From assembly GCF_016817355.1 (NCBI RefSeq), contig NZ_JADOTT010000004.1, positions 186,001-250,000 of the forward strand: a stretch of DNA of 64,000 nt, given 5' to 3'. Positions 36,982 to 42,846 of this stretch are shown here, piece after piece. A model generated the notes under the pieces. It saw nothing but the letters and a program-made list of their open reading frames with translations, did no database searches and was not told where the DNA came from. Origin of the DNA: Maricaulis parjimensis. Its GTDB lineage: Bacteria; Pseudomonadota; Alphaproteobacteria; Caulobacterales; Maricaulaceae. How positions within the stretch are numbered: the first letter of the stretch is position 1; each line of letters opens with the position of its first letter. The position numbers were made by a program, and so were the translations under genes.

Positions 36982-37614
36982 TTATTTCTCACCCGGTTTG
37001 GAGGCCCGCACGGCATGGCGTTTGCGCAGAACGGCCACGACATCATCCAGGCTGAGATCGCGGGATTCCAGCAGGACCATGAGGTGGAAGAGCAGGTCCG
37101 CCGCTTCGCCCTTGAGCGCGGCCTTGCTTTCCGACACGGCGGCCATGGCGACCTCGACGCCCTCTTCGCCAACCTTCTGGGCCGGGCGTTTCGGGGCGCG
37201 GGCCATCAGGCCTCCGACATAGGAGCCCTTGGGCTTGTCCTTCTTGCGCTTGCGGATGATCGCCCGCAAATGCGCCAGGAAGCCCAGGCCCGGAGCCGGG
37301 TCATCGCCGAAACAGGTCACCGTGCCGGTATGGCAGGCCGGGCCTTTCGGCTTCACCTCGACCAGCAGAGTGTCATTGTCGCAATCAGCCGCCAGGGAAA
37401 CGAGTTTGAACGTGTTTCCGGAGGTTTCGCCCTTTTTCCAGAGTTCCTGGCGCGAGCGGGAATAGAAATGCACCTTGCCGGTCTCGACCGTCCGGGCGAG
37501 CGCCTCTTCATTCATATAGCCCAGCATGAGGACCTGGCGGGTGGCATGGTCCTGGATAATGGCCGGGATGAGCCCGTCGGACTTTTTCCAGTCCAGGCTT
37601 TTGGCATCAATCAT
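36982..37614 (-). CDS. hisIE: bifunctional phosphoribosyl-AMP cyclohydrolase/phosphoribosyl-ATP pyrophosphatase
   Basis: Catalyses steps two and three of histidine synthesis. The 210-residue protein has an N-terminal HisI domain ([36 protein letters not shown]; zinc cysteines in ADCDNDTLL and [12 protein letters not shown]). A C-terminal HisE domain follows ([30 protein letters not shown]). Its ATG overlaps the hisF stop by four bases. It is the last gene of the his operon. Many alphaproteobacteria keep hisI and hisE apart, so this is a second fusion in the operon. Confidence 0.95.
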
Positions 37615-38378
37615 GGTCTGACTCTGAGTCCCTCATCACCGAGATAGGCTTTCAAATCGCCGATTTCGATGACCCCCTTGTGAAACACGCTGGCCGCCAG
37701 CGCTCCATCGACATTGGCCAATTCGAAGACGGATTTGAAGTGCTCTTTCCGTCCCGCGCCGCCCGAAGCGATCAAAGGTGTGGAACACACGGCCCGCACG
37801 GCGGCCAATTGCTCGATGTCATAGCCATCGCGCACACCGTCCATGTCCATGCAATTGAGGACGACCTCACCGACACCGCGTTCAATGCCTTCGCGCACCC
37901 AGTCGAGCGTCTTGCGATGATCGGTCAGCGTCTTGTCGGGATCGCCGGTGAACTGGTGCACGCGCCAGGCCCCGTCAATGATGCGGCTGTCCACTCCCAG
38001 CACGATGCACTGGCTGCCGAATTCGCGGGCCAGCGTGTCGATCAGGTCCGGGTTTTCCAGCGCCGGCGTATTGATGGAAATCTTGTCGGCCCCGGCGAAG
38101 AGACGCGCGCGGGCATCCTCGACAGAGCGGATTCCACCCGCCACGCAAAAGGGAATATCAATCTCGCGGGCCACCCGGCTGACCCATTCCGGTTCGACCG
38201 TATCGCCGCGCGCCGAAGCGGCGATGTCGTAGAAGACCAGCTCGTCGGCCCCTTCGCGGGCATAGCGGCGGGCGAGTTTGACGATATCGCCGACATCCTC
38301 GTGGTCGCGGAATTTCACGCCTTTCACGACGCGGCCATCGCGCACATCGAGGCAGGGAATTATGCGCTTTGCGAGCAT
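37611..38378 (-). CDS. hisF: imidazole glycerol phosphate synthase, cyclase subunit
   Basis: HisF uses ammonia from HisH to make imidazole glycerol phosphate and AICAR. From ATG 38378 the protein has 255 residues and opens [23 protein letters not shown], the standard family start, with catalytic D11. The second aspartate region is [13 protein letters not shown], and phosphate loops such as [11 protein letters not shown] follow. The open frame runs far upstream inside hisA without homology, so that extension was discarded. It overlaps the 3' end of hisA by 19 bases. Confidence 0.95.
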
Positions 38379-39094
38379 GCCAGCGCCTCTTCGATGGTGA
38401 AGCGTTTCTCGTAGATCGCCTTGCCGGAAATGGCCCCGGCCACGCCGGTTTCCCGGGCCGCTTCGATATCTTCCAGCGAGGCAATGCCGCCAGAGGCCTG
38501 CCATTGCACATCCGGAAAGCGTTCGACCAGACCACGATAAAGCGCCAGATTCGGACCGGACAGATCACCATCCCGACCGATATCGGTCACCAGGGCATGG
38601 GCCAGCCCCGTCCCGTCATAGGCTTTCACGACATCATCCAGCGTGGTCATCATCAAATCGGTCCAGCCGGACAGGGCCGGACGGTATTGGCCGCCTGTGC
38701 GTTTCACATCCAGTGCCAGGGTGATGTGGTCGGGGCCATAGCGTTCCAGCCAGCGCGAGACCTGTTCAGGCTCGGTGACGGCGAGCGAGCCGACAATCAC
38801 CCGCTCAACGCCAATGGCCAGAAGGCTCTCCACATCTTCCGCGGAACGCACACCGCCGCCCGTCTGGACGCGCAGACCCGTGCGGCAGAGCTCGCGGATC
38901 GTATCGCTCTGGCGGCGTTTGCCATCGCGGGCGCCGGAGAGGTCGACGACATGCACCCAGCTGGCCCCGGCCTCGCCGAAGCGTTCCGCGACCGCCACCG
39001 GGTCGTCGCCATAATCGGTGACCGCGTCAAAAGCGCCCTTGTGAAGACGCACGACACGGCCGTCGAGCAGATCGATTGCAGGATAGAGGATCAC
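38360..39094 (-). CDS. hisA: ProFAR isomerase
   Basis: HisA isomerises the N-glycoside of ProFAR by an Amadori reaction in histidine synthesis. I start the protein at GTG 39094, which gives [19 protein letters not shown], the normal HisA opening with catalytic D8; the length is 244 residues. Other conserved parts are [36 protein letters not shown] with the second aspartate, and [14 protein letters not shown]. The longer open frame overlaps hisH and lacks homology. Four bases separate it from the hisH stop. Confidence 0.94.
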
Positions 39095-39098
39095 GGGA

Positions 39099-39692
39099 CT
39101 AGCAACTCGCGAAGTTGGAAAGGATACGGGCACCGACACGGCCGGAGCGTTCCGGGTGGAATTGGCAGCCGGCAATGTGTCCGGAACGGACGATGGCGGA
39201 GACTTCAGCGCCATAATCGGCCTGCGCCACCGTGGCGGGCCCGACCGGGGCATAGAAGCCGTGGACGAAATAGGCGTATTCACCCAGCGACACATGGCGC
39301 AGAAGCGGCTCGTCACTGGCAAAGGCCTGCAGGGCATTCCAGCCCATATGCGGCCAGACCAGGCCTTCGGTCAGAGGCAGTTTCTCCACCCGGCCCGGGA
39401 TCAGACCCAGCGTATCCACATCGCCTTCCGCGGAGTGTTCGAACAGGAGCTGCATGCCCAGGCAAATGCCCAGGAGCGGCCGGTCATCCGTGCGGAAGGC
39501 CTCCGGCCAGCCGCGCTCGTCCAGCCGCGCCATGGCGGCACCGGCGGCACCGACACCGGGCAGGATGAGCCGGTCGCAATCGCCGGTCTCGGACGGATCA
39601 CGCACCACGACATGATCCAGCCCGGCCCGTTCCAGGGCAAAGCGGACCGAGGCAATATTGGCACAGCCGGTATCGATCAAACCGATGGTCAT
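39099..39692 (-). CDS. hisH: imidazole glycerol phosphate synthase, glutaminase subunit
   Basis: HisH releases ammonia from glutamine for HisF. The 197-residue class I amidotransferase has LPGVGAAGAAM, the nucleophile cysteine in LGICLGMQLLFEHS, and histidine and glutamate in GCQFHPERSGRVG. The oxyanion region VWPHMGWNAL fits. Its ATG overlaps the hisDB stop by four bases, consistent with coupled translation. Confidence 0.95.
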   Translation of the reverse strand: MTIGLIDTGCANIASVRFALERAGLDHVVVRDPSETGDCDRLILPGVGAAGAAMARLDERGWPEAFRTDDRPLLGICLGMQLLFEHSAEGDVDTLGLIPGRVEKLPLTEGLVWPHMGWNALQAFASDEPLLRHVSLGEYAYFVHGFYAPVGPATVAQADYGAEVSAIVRSGHIAGCQFHPERSGRVGARILSNFASC

Positions 39693-41596
39693 GCCAGCAT
39701 GCCCTTGGTGGATGGCAGGGCATCGCCCTCAATGCGAACCGCACCGCGCAGGGCCCGGCCAAAGGCCTTGAAACAGCCTTCCACCATGTGGTGGGCGTTC
39801 TCGCCCTCCACTTTCACATGGATGGCCGCACCCAGGCTTTCCGCGATGGAGCGGAAAGCGTGCGGCGTCATCTCGACGGGAAAACCGCCGACCATCTCGC
39901 CCGGGATCTCGCCCTCGAACTTGGCGTAGGGCCGGCCGGACAGATCGATCCAGACCGAGGCCAGCGTCTCGTCCATCGGCAGTTCAAAGCCGAAACGGGC
40001 AATGCCGCGCTTGTCACCCAGGGCTTCGCGCAGGGCTTCCCCGAAGGTCAGGCAGACATCCTCGATCGTGTGGTGGGCATCGATGTGGAGATCCCCCTCC
40101 ACCGCCACGTCCAGCGCAATCCCGCCATGGCGGGCGATCTGGTCCAGCATGTGGTCGAAATAGCCCACGCCGGTCTCGATCCGGTTGGGGCCATTGCGAT
40201 CCAGATTGACCGTGACCGTGACATCCGTTTCGCCGGTCTTGCGGCGCTTGGTGCCCGCGCGCGGACCGGCGGCCGCCGTGGACTGGACCTTCAGCGCTTC
40301 GGCCTTCTCGCGGCGCAGACGCATGGCCGTGGCGTGGGCTTCCAGACCTTCCAGGGCGGCGAGCCGTTCCACGGTCGGGGCGAGCCCGGCAGCGCCTTCG
40401 GCCGACGCGCGCAGGATGGTCGTGGTCTTCTGGAAGCTTTCCACCGACACCCCGCCATAGGCGCGGCCGGCGCCCGAGGTAGGCAGGGTGTGGTTGGGTC
40501 CGGCGGCATAATCACCGGCAGCTTCCGGGGTCCACGCGCCCACAAAGATCGAGCCGGCATGACGCACCAGATCGACCAGGCGTTCCGCACTTTCCGTCTG
40601 CAGGATCAGGTGTTCCGGCGCATATTGATTGGCGACCTCCGCGGCGTCTTCAAGACTCTCGCAGATCACGGTGCGGGAATTCTCCAGAGCCGCGCGGGCA
40701 ATCTCTTCGCGCGGCAATCGGGCGAGCTGGGTTTCTGTGGCCGCCAGTACGCGGTCGCGCGTGGCGGTGTCGAAACAGACCAGGACGACCTGGGCGGACG
40801 GATCGTGTTCAGCCTGGCTCAACAAATCGCTGGCAACGAAGTCGACATCGGCCTCAGCATCGGCGATCACCATGACCTCGCTGGGTCCGGCGGGCAGATC
40901 GATGGCGGGTCCGCCCGGCAGGCCAGCGACATAGGATTTGGCGGCCGCGACATAGGCATTGCCCGGTCCGAAAATCTTGTCGGCACGCGGCAGGCCGGCC
41001 GTACCCGTCGCCAGGGCCGCCACGGCCTGGGCCCCGCCAATGGCGTAGACTTCGTCAAGGCCGAGGATTTCGGCGGCGGCCAGAAGAGCCGGATTCACCC
41101 CGCCCTGCCCGTTCGGCGGCGCCACGACGACAATCCGCGGCACGCCAGCCAGCTGGGCCGGCACGGCCAGCATGATCAGGGTGGAAACCAGAGGCGCGCT
41201 GCCGGCCGGCACATAGAGTGCTGCGACATCAACCGGGGTCGCGCGGCGAGACGCCTTCACACCGGACCAGGTCTCCACGGAATAGGACGAATACCCCTGC
41301 TTGATGTGGAAACGGCGCACCGCATCGGCAGCGGCCTTGATGGCTTCGACATCCGCCGCGTCCATGGCTGCGCGGGCTGCAGACAGGGCCTCAGCCGGGA
41401 TGCGGAAATCCTCCGGCGCATAGCCATCCAGCCGCGACGCATAGGCCCGCACGGCGGTCTCGCCCTGGGCACGTACGGCATCGACGATCTCGCGGGCGGC
41501 CGCATCGGCCGTTCCGGTCTCGACCGGACGGGCCAGAGCCTGGCGGCGCTGCGCCTCGGAGGCGTCTCTCCAGATCAGGGTTTCAAGCATGCTCAT
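39689..41596 (-). CDS. hisDB: fused histidinol dehydrogenase / imidazoleglycerol-phosphate dehydratase
   Basis: One uninterrupted 635-codon frame encodes two histidine enzymes. Residues 1 to about 435 are full-length HisD: zinc ligand candidates Q261 and H264 (LLSQAEHD), D362 and H421, and the E328/H329 base pair in YAPEHL. After a short Ala/Gly linker (about 438-449) comes full-length HisB: FDHMLDQIARHGG (H482, H490), HIDAHHTIED (H504, H508, H509, E512) and ENAHHMVEGCFKAFGR (H602, H603, E606). Codons across the junction contain no ATG, GTG or TTG between M425 and the HisB core, so HisB has no obvious separate start. The gene begins two bases after hisG ends and overlaps hisH. Confidence 0.93.
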   Translation of the reverse strand: MSMLETLIWRDASEAQRRQALARPVETGTADAAAREIVDAVRAQGETAVRAYASRLDGYAPEDFRIPAEALSAARAAMDAADVEAIKAAADAVRRFHIKQGYSSYSVETWSGVKASRRATPVDVAALYVPAGSAPLVSTLIMLAVPAQLAGVPRIVVVAPPNGQGGVNPALLAAAEILGLDEVYAIGGAQAVAALATGTAGLPRADKIFGPGNAYVAAAKSYVAGLPGGPAIDLPAGPSEVMVIADAEADVDFVASDLLSQAEHDPSAQVVLVCFDTATRDRVLAATETQLARLPREEIARAALENSRTVICESLEDAAEVANQYAPEHLILQTESAERLVDLVRHAGSIFVGAWTPEAAGDYAAGPNHTLPTSGAGRAYGGVSVESFQKTTTILRASAEGAAGLAPTVERLAALEGLEAHATAMRLRREKAEALKVQSTAAAGPRAGTKRRKTGETDVTVTVNLDRNGPNRIETGVGYFDHMLDQIARHGGIALDVAVEGDLHIDAHHTIEDVCLTFGEALREALGDKRGIARFGFELPMDETLASVWIDLSGRPYAKFEGEIPGEMVGGFPVEMTPHAFRSIAESLGAAIHVKVEGENAHHMVEGCFKAFGRALRGAVRIEGDALPSTKGMLA

Positions 41597-41598
41597 GA

Positions 41599-42483
41599 TC
41601 AGGCCAGCATTTTCTCAATGGGCAGGACGAGGATGGCGCGGGCACCTTCCTTTTCGAGGGCTTCCAGGGTTTCCCAGAAGACCCGCTCCCGGCAGACCGC
41701 GTGCAGGGCGACGACATCATCGCGGCCGGCGATCTGGGCCACGGTCGGGGCATCAGCCCCCGGCAGAAGCGAGCGGATGGCTTCCAGACGGTCCACCGGC
41801 GCGTTCAGCATGATGTATTTGGTCTGGGCGCAATCGATCACGCCGCGGGCGCGACGCATGAGGATATTGGCAATCTCGTCGGCGGTCGCATCCCGGCCGG
41901 ATTTGCGACGGATCAAAACCGCCTCGCTCTCCAGCACGGTCTCGAAAGCCTTGAGCCCATTGGCCTGCAGCGTGGCACCGGAAGAGACCAGGTCACAGAT
42001 AGCGTCAGCGATGCGCAGACGCGGGGCCACTTCCACCGAACCCCGCATTTCCACGATCTCGGCTTTCACGCCATTATCGGCCAGGTATTTCGCCGTCAGC
42101 GCGGGATAGGATGTCGCAACGGCCTTGCCGTCCAGATCCTTCACCGAGGTGATCTCTCCGCCTTCAGCCGCAGCGAGTTTCAGCGTGCAGCCGGCAAAAC
42201 CGAGACGCAGGGCGATCTCCAATTCCTGGGCGCGGCCACCGGCGGCCTGCTCCTCGGCCAGAACATTCTCACCGACAATCCCGTAATCACAGGCGCCGGA
42301 GGCGACAAAGTTCGGAATGTCGTCATCCCGTACCAGCATGAGATCGACATCCATGTTCTCGGCGCGCTGGTGCAGCTTGTCACGGCCATAGGCGAAACGC
42401 AGACCACAGCGCTTGAGCAGATCCATGCCGCCCTCGGCGAGGCGGCCCTTGCTTTGAACGGCAATACGCAGACGCGAACTCAC
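41599..42483 (-). CDS. hisG: ATP phosphoribosyltransferase
   Basis: HisG carries out the first committed step of histidine synthesis, ATP plus PRPP to phosphoribosyl-ATP. The 294-residue protein has E. coli-type length: a catalytic N-terminal part (RIAVQSKGRLAEGGMDLLKRCG; SGACDYGIVGENVL; ICDLVSSGATLQANGL) and a C-terminal regulatory domain of about 75 residues. It should therefore not need HisZ and should be feedback-inhibited by histidine. The start is GTG 42483, which overlaps the yerC stop (GTGA), indicating coupling. Confidence 0.95.
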   Translation of the reverse strand: MSSRLRIAVQSKGRLAEGGMDLLKRCGLRFAYGRDKLHQRAENMDVDLMLVRDDDIPNFVASGACDYGIVGENVLAEEQAAGGRAQELEIALRLGFAGCTLKLAAAEGGEITSVKDLDGKAVATSYPALTAKYLADNGVKAEIVEMRGSVEVAPRLRIADAICDLVSSGATLQANGLKAFETVLESEAVLIRRKSGRDATADEIANILMRRARGVIDCAQTKYIMLNAPVDRLEAIRSLLPGADAPTVAQIAGRDDVVALHAVCRERVFWETLEALEKEGARAILVLPIEKMLA

Positions 42484-42797
42484 GAGTCCTGCTCCTTCAA
42501 TCGGTTGAGAATGGTGCGATAGCCCTGCCAGGGTTCCTGGCTGAGAAAACGGGCGACCCGGGTGACCGTGGTGGTGGAGGCACCGGTCATTTCGGCGATC
42601 TCGCGATAGGAAATCCCGCCCTCATTGAGCAGACGGGCGACGCGCCAGCGTTCGGTCAGCGTCTTGATCTCCCCCGGTGTGAGAAGATCACGCAGGAAGC
42701 GTTCGGCTTCAGCACGGTCCTCGATCAGCAGGATCGCCTCGCAAAGTGGGCCCAGATCAGGCTGGGCGGAACGGGTATCGGCAGTCATTTCGGCCAT
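42480..42797 (-). CDS. yerC: YerC/YecD-type TrpR-like transcriptional regulator
   Basis: A 105-residue TrpR-superfamily DNA-binding protein: LLTPGEIKTLTERWRVARLLNEGGISYREIAEMTGASTTTVTRVARFL spans the helix-turn-helix. I chose ATG 42797 because AAGGAG lies eight bases upstream; the frame opens at 42902 on the far side of the operator. It is the first gene of the his operon and overlaps hisG by four bases. By position it probably represses the operon, with histidine as a likely corepressor; that is inference. Confidence 0.88.
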   Translation of the reverse strand: MAEMTADTRSAQPDLGPLCEAILLIEDRAEAERFLRDLLTPGEIKTLTERWRVARLLNEGGISYREIAEMTGASTTTVTRVARFLSQEPWQGYRTILNRLKEQDS

Positions 42798-42818: not shown

Positions 42819-42846
42819 GATATAGCGTGTTAGCGCGCTAACACAA
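42819..42846 (-). promoter_or_regulatory. his operon promoter with embedded 18-bp palindromic operator
   Basis: Read on the minus strand, a -35-like TTGTGT (42841-42846) and a -10-like TATATC (42819-42824) are 16 bases apart. A perfect 18-bp palindrome, GTGTTAGCG and its complement (42827-42844), fills the spacer and touches the -35 box. A protein bound there would block RNA polymerase. It lies 29 bases before the yerC ATG, so YerC is the natural candidate for binding it. Confidence 0.72.

Follow-up and report, generated by a model that had tools for sequence, protein, structure and literature searches.

Fusion of HisD and HisB in Maricaulis and its probable origin by erosion of an intervening HisC domain

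The stretch of DNA analysed here, 64,000 nucleotides of a Maricaulis parjimensis contig (hereafter the window), contains a histidine operon in the order TrpR-family regulator, hisG, hisD::hisB, hisH, hisA, hisF and hisIE (Table 1). The first-pass annotation, made from the sequence alone, read HisD and HisB as a single continuous protein that retains the catalytic ligands of both enzymes. Both readings hold: the 635-residue frame is uninterrupted and its two domains are complete. Histidinol_dh (PF00815) scores 481 bits at residues 29-428 and TIGR00069 scores 482 bits, each full-length and above the curated cut-off. IGPD (PF00475), at 475-616, scores 196 bits against a cut-off of 27, and the full-length match to NF002111 scores 240 bits against 231. 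The HisNB model NF003937 reaches 282 bits, below its cut-off of 443, and covers model positions 143-355 only.

Table 1. Features of the his operon, in window coordinates
Feature	Position	Strand	Remarks
TrpR-family (YerC-like) regulator	42480-42797	(-)	head of his operon
hisG	41599..42483	(-)	PF01634 and TIGR00070; directly upstream of fusion gene
hisD::hisB fusion gene	39689..41596	(-)	635 aa, single frame, two Pfam domains; frame in 17/17 Maricaulis genomes
HisD part, about residues 1-437	40286..41596	(-)	PF00815 at 29-428; active site aligns with that of E. coli HisD
linker, about residues 438-443	40268..40285	(-)	pLDDT <50, between HisD helix 419-440 and first HisB strand 447
HisB part, about residues 444-635, plus stop	39689..40267	(-)	PF00475 at 475-616; phmmer matches to solved IGPDs starting near residue 440
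hisH	39099..39692	(-)	TIGR01855; 4-base overlap with fusion gene end
hisA	38360..39097	(-)	TIGR00007 from ORF residue 84; start approximate, ORF to 39337
hisF	37611..38378	(-)	TIGR00735 from ORF residue 43; start approximate, ORF to 38504
hisIE fusion gene	36982..37614	(-)	NF002747 above cut-off

HisD residues Gln261, His264, Glu328, His329, Asp362 and His421 align to E. coli HisD sites (alignment to 1k75) that we take to be the zinc ligands and the catalytic pair. In the HisB part, the candidate metal-site residues are His482, His508, His509, Glu512, His579, His602, His603 and Glu606, which presumably fit the metal sites of the enzyme. All of these residues are invariant across 15 aligned fused proteins. 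The window's genome (99.98% complete) has one copy each of hisD and hisB. In four Maricaulis pairs dN/dS is 0.01-0.24 for HisB and 0.07-0.19 for HisD; all dN/dS values given here come from simple counting, and dS is high in several pairs. Both activities appear to persist, given that the active-site residues are retained in each half and that each half is under purifying selection. The AlphaFold2 model of the protein (mean pLDDT 80.6, pTM 0.64) shows a helix of HisD spanning 419-440, with the first strand of HisB starting at residue 447. The linker, initially put between about residues 435 and 450, is indeed short, and its extent now narrows to about six residues (438-443), where pLDDT falls below 50. 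HisD catalyses the last two steps of the histidine pathway, not the last one alone as first annotated. The remaining part of that reading stands, namely that the fused steps are not consecutive in the established pathway, and we agree that direct substrate channelling is for this reason unlikely. HisB forms a 24-mer and HisD a dimer.

The accessible text of PMC9413887 gives YerC-like proteins of the TrpR family the name HisR. The proteobacterial HisR motif presented in that text has no match in the window with up to two mismatches allowed. Just upstream of the regulator, at 42827-42844, lies the 18-base palindrome GTGTTAGCGCGCTAACAC, found exactly or nearly so in many Maricaulis loci; it is a candidate operator. 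An N-terminal extension of HisG by 88-90 residues (genera g5, g6 and g16) was rejected: two examples gave no regulator match, and the extension looks like an overlapping frame. A HisD from another family of the class (G515:C5:271196-272500, family f90) is 62% identical to Maricaulis HisD, as close as those of other f1 genera, and transfer of this operon type is possible there.

A search of 398 genomes of the order finds the fusion as a single frame in all 17 Maricaulis genomes, the 16 others at 62-94% identity. Isolates with species names (M. alexandrii, M. salignorans and M. maris) have it too. These independent genomes exclude the frame error at the junction that the first-pass annotation had raised, and an assembly or frame error merging two genes, for which we found no supporting point, has practically no chance of being correct. 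Outside Maricaulis, the same order-wide search finds the fused frame in one genome of the Hyphobacterium lineage (G360; family f1, genus g3) and in ten genomes of genus g30 in family f4. G266 has the fused frame too, its start being absent at a contig end. Among 385 genomes of the class, no full-length HisD::HisB other than the window's own appears at E 1e-100. Among the best 80 of 87 relatives, L092 is the full-length fusion beyond loci named as or assignable to Maricaulis, and the distant loci L102, L119, L136 and L137 give a gapped match across both domains. A match in Acidimicrobiia (L117, coverage 17-633) was rejected as a fusion; it consists of two ORFs of 446 and 199 aa.

The first annotation also stated that no ATG, GTG or TTG lies between Met425 and the HisB core. 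This holds in the window, where the first such in-frame codon is the GTG of Val477, inside the core, and fails as a general Maricaulis trait. The start-codon scan covered 20 Maricaulis rows, three of which repeat another row; the 21st locus (L159) was left out for a pattern mismatch. Two of the 20 have no ATG, GTG or TTG in the 50 codons ahead of the core, and half of them (10/20) have a GTG 18 codons ahead of it. That GTG could allow HisB to be produced alone as well, by internal initiation within the fused frame. It sits inside the first HisB strand, however, no start position is common to all 20 rows, and the window itself offers none between Met425 and Val477. We therefore give internal initiation a very slight chance.

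Relatives with separate hisD and hisB were originally expected to refute the fusion. Rather, they help to explain it, because hisB in these genomes makes up the 3' portion of a longer gene, either HisC::HisB or an eroded form of it, and the stepwise loss of the HisC domain therefore becomes our main point. In the unfused loci examined, what separates hisD from the HisB domain belongs to the hisB ORF, as its N-terminal region. UPF0262 was rejected as the content of this gap; in the window's genome it lies on contig C11 and the window on C12, and the sequence in the gap is the 5' portion of the hisB frame. From 64 loci, 63 were classified (43 separate and 20 fused, two of the 63 repeating another row); the other, L196, was truncated and gave no HisB. 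The state of the catalytic lysine, which we take to be the PLP-binding residue, was read directly from the sequences. The resulting series is graded. Fourteen of the 63 loci have a separate gene with a full HisC of 355-365 aa and the lysine motif, that is, HisC::HisB. G099 has an N-terminal region of 345 aa in which the lysine is replaced by serine. In 11 loci the region measures 257-310 aa and can still be aligned to HisC, again with the lysine replaced, and in 17 it is down to 186-222 aa with no lysine motif seen. The remaining 20 are HisD::HisB fusions with no remnant: in Maricaulis, in G360 and in part of family f4, HisD is joined directly to HisB.

The shortest regions are the least recognizable. 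BLASTP with Maricaulis HisC yields no match to the 186-222 aa form, and Pfam yields none for the one example searched. A profile of twelve such regions, compared with the HisC-domain profile by HHalign, matches with a probability of 91.4% (E 9.1e-7) over 132 columns in the C-terminal half of the HisC profile. The AlphaFold2 model of a 210-aa remnant from Oceanicaulis (pLDDT 84.8) retrieves PLP-enzyme folds in Foldseek, the best being an ornithine aminotransferase at an E of only 5e-4. In VIA-align, the hits ranked 1-11 are all annotated as HisC, and the best of them (3hdo_B) has a Z of 12.3 over 190 residues at 3.5 Å. These results indicate that the 186-222 aa region shares descent with HisC, and the 210-aa remnant is predicted to keep the aminotransferase fold, closest to HisC structures. 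Furthermore, the 222-aa remnant of G128 aligns with the intact HisC domain of G218, from the same genus, at 35% identity over about 75 residues (BLASTP E 0.004). The two members of this genus (g9) differ in state: G218 has an intact HisC::HisB together with a separate HisC, and G128 has the remnant. The pair should be useful to date HisC decay. On the operon tree, G128 groups with rows from f3 and f4, its branch being long.

The fate of the fused HisC is complementary to the distribution of a separate one. Among the genomes whose fused HisC is intact, 19 of 26 have no separate HisC scoring above the TIGR01141 cut-off; among those in which it is eroded or lost, 33 of 34 do have one. The single exception (G291) is a genome that is 65% complete. 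G330 was counted as intact on its lysine motif and 556-aa ORF, to which the IGPD pattern did not match, and G404 was left out of the table as its match is cut off. The association has a Fisher p of 5e-9, a value that ignores shared ancestry. Redundancy alone does not force HisC decay, because seven of the 26 genomes with an intact domain (five of g2, G398 and G218) have a separate HisC as well. A quick HisC tree with 77 rows puts the fused domains in one clade and 41 separate HisCs in another, which includes those of other alphaproteobacteria; gammaproteobacterial HisCs are placed between the two. A hisC::hisB-type operon thus may have come to coexist with a native HisC, the redundancy later being resolved in either direction.

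The number of fusion events was addressed with a tree of operon genes (65 rows, 1614 columns; L079, L115, L131 and L139 were dropped beforehand). The fewest state changes to the fused form are four. The AU test rejects a single clade comprising the 19 fused rows (p 6.5e-15), so the HisD::HisB fusions have at least two origins and up to four. The other possibility is that the fusion arose once, in an ancestor or a donor, and then spread by operon transfer. For the operon genes, Maricaulis and G360 as one clade are not rejected (p 0.39), nor are the two groups of g30 fusions as one (p 0.47 and 0.46). In addition, the his operon of G360 diverges far more from Hyphobacterium than its HisC does, with an end branch of 0.63 on the operon tree, as would be expected of a transferred operon, and transfer into G360 is possible because of this unusual divergence. 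On the other hand, its separate HisC groups with Hyphobacterium-genus genomes and rejects a grouping with Maricaulis (p 2e-5), and rejection of a common clade means that the fusions in f1 and in f4 must have arisen separately. One origin followed by transfer is thus quite unlikely for the fusions as a whole, and G360 itself does not count as a firmly independent origin. A binning error in G360 was rejected: the LepA on its his contig is 93% identical to those of four Hyphobacterium-genus genomes (one partial) and 82-86% identical to those of three Maricaulis genomes, and the contig fits the Hyphobacterium lineage. We note that the LepA of G143 (G143:C1:2081711-2082910) matches over residues 1-400 of 600 only, with other LepA rows reaching at least 588; this is either a broken gene or a sequence error.

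Taken together, we consider it probable that the gene encodes one bifunctional HisD-HisB protein that arose by erosion of a third enzyme located between the two. The earlier operon is proposed to have read hisG-hisD-[hisC::hisB]-hisH-hisA-hisF-hisIE and to have encoded an active HisC joined to the N-terminal end of HisB. This fused domain would have been redundant in genomes that also encoded, at another locus, a HisC of the alphaproteobacterial type. Genomes without the separate enzyme would have kept the fused HisC; in those with it, the catalytic lysine would have been lost and the domain would have shrunk by in-frame deletions within the N-terminal region, from about 360 to 345, then 310-257 and finally 222-186 aa. 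Throughout this shrinkage, HisB may have kept using the start codon of the HisC frame. In 27 of the 43 separate loci, the mechanically chosen start of the hisB frame overlaps the hisD stop by four bases, and hisD and hisB are consequently in different frames. One frame-changing deletion that removed the remnant, the hisD stop and the hisB start would then have fused HisD with HisB; this would have happened in Maricaulis and, as a separate event, in one or more other families. We infer both the order of these events and the single deletion.

Simple decay does not appear to be the whole story, because the remnants show purifying selection. Their dN/dS is 0.07-0.41 in nine pairs, compared with 0.04-0.09 for HisB in the same pairs, and in an Oceanicaulis pair the remnant value of 0.067 is below that of HisD (0.115). 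The remnants are thus constrained, though usually less so than HisB, and may have a structural role. This raises the alternative that the fusion is adaptive, with HisD filling a needed N-terminal place on HisB for reasons of stoichiometry or assembly, and is not a neutral leftover. The constraint on the remnants and their predicted fold speak for it. In f1, moreover, none of the 41 separate HisB rows among the matches listed is a bare HisB of this type; each sits in a frame no shorter than 365 aa. HisC and HisD each occur as the N-terminal partner of HisB, as does HisN (PMC8305728, available text). A HisB without a start of its own would, however, give the same pattern with no selection for a partner, and an adaptive fusion seems possible if somewhat unlikely. 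A more specific proposal is that, in operons of this type, HisB would depend for its assembly on a partner at its N-terminus, which would be an active HisC at first, then a catalytically dead remnant of ~190-210 aa and lastly HisD in the same structural post. The remnant would represent a retained pseudoenzyme scaffold, and HisD::HisB would swap one dimeric scaffold for another on the HisB 24-mer, where twelve dimers could be accommodated at the two-fold axes. We view this proposal as rather unlikely.

Functional partnership is commonly deduced from gene fusions. The present fusion joins non-consecutive steps and is best explained by history, probably the erosion of HisC. Living relatives display several stages of that history (active fused HisC, lysine lost, shrunken fold and nothing), and the same genomes also reveal the redundancy that could have allowed it. 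The distinction between a selected and a leftover fusion therefore becomes testable. We regard the decay of HisC between HisD and HisB as a more interesting result than the fusion itself.

The first-pass annotation did not count HisD-HisB among the standard his fusions, and indeed it is absent from the five listed in PMC1963479, as far as the available text extends. The accessible parts of PMC1963479, PMC8305728, PMC10138114, PMC11237513, PMC6029752 and PMC4921024 name hisNB, hisIE, hisHF, hisIED, hisA/hisF and a large Acanthamoeba protein; neither HisD::HisB nor HisC::HisB was found in them. To the his fusions named there we add these two, neither of which we found in the literature searched, which covers few subscription papers; the string 'hisD-hisB' does occur in PMC3828012. 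Each of the known systems resembles the present one in part. The HisNB of enterobacteria also has a later-step enzyme at the N-terminus of HisB and is encoded in a his operon (PMC8305728, available text), whereas the partner here is HisD, or HisC in relatives, instead of HisN, and there is no phosphatase domain. Fungal HIS4 (HisI-HisE-HisD) likewise fuses HisD to other his enzymes (PMC1963479, available text), but its HisD is C-terminal, not N-terminal as here, and the partners differ. The heptafunctional his protein of Acanthamoeba again includes HisD in a multi-enzyme chain, with IGPD supplied from a separate gene, according to the accessible portion of PMC6029752. A further comparison is the gammaproteobacterial operon hisGDC[NB]HAF[IE], which has the gene order G-D-C-B-H-A-F-IE in common with the ancestral arrangement proposed here. 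The quick tree places the HisC domains fused to HisB closer to HisCs from his loci of gammaproteobacteria than to the separate ones of alphaproteobacteria. The present operon differs in having no hisN part, and in that hisC would have been fused to hisB and eroded before hisD was in turn fused to hisB.
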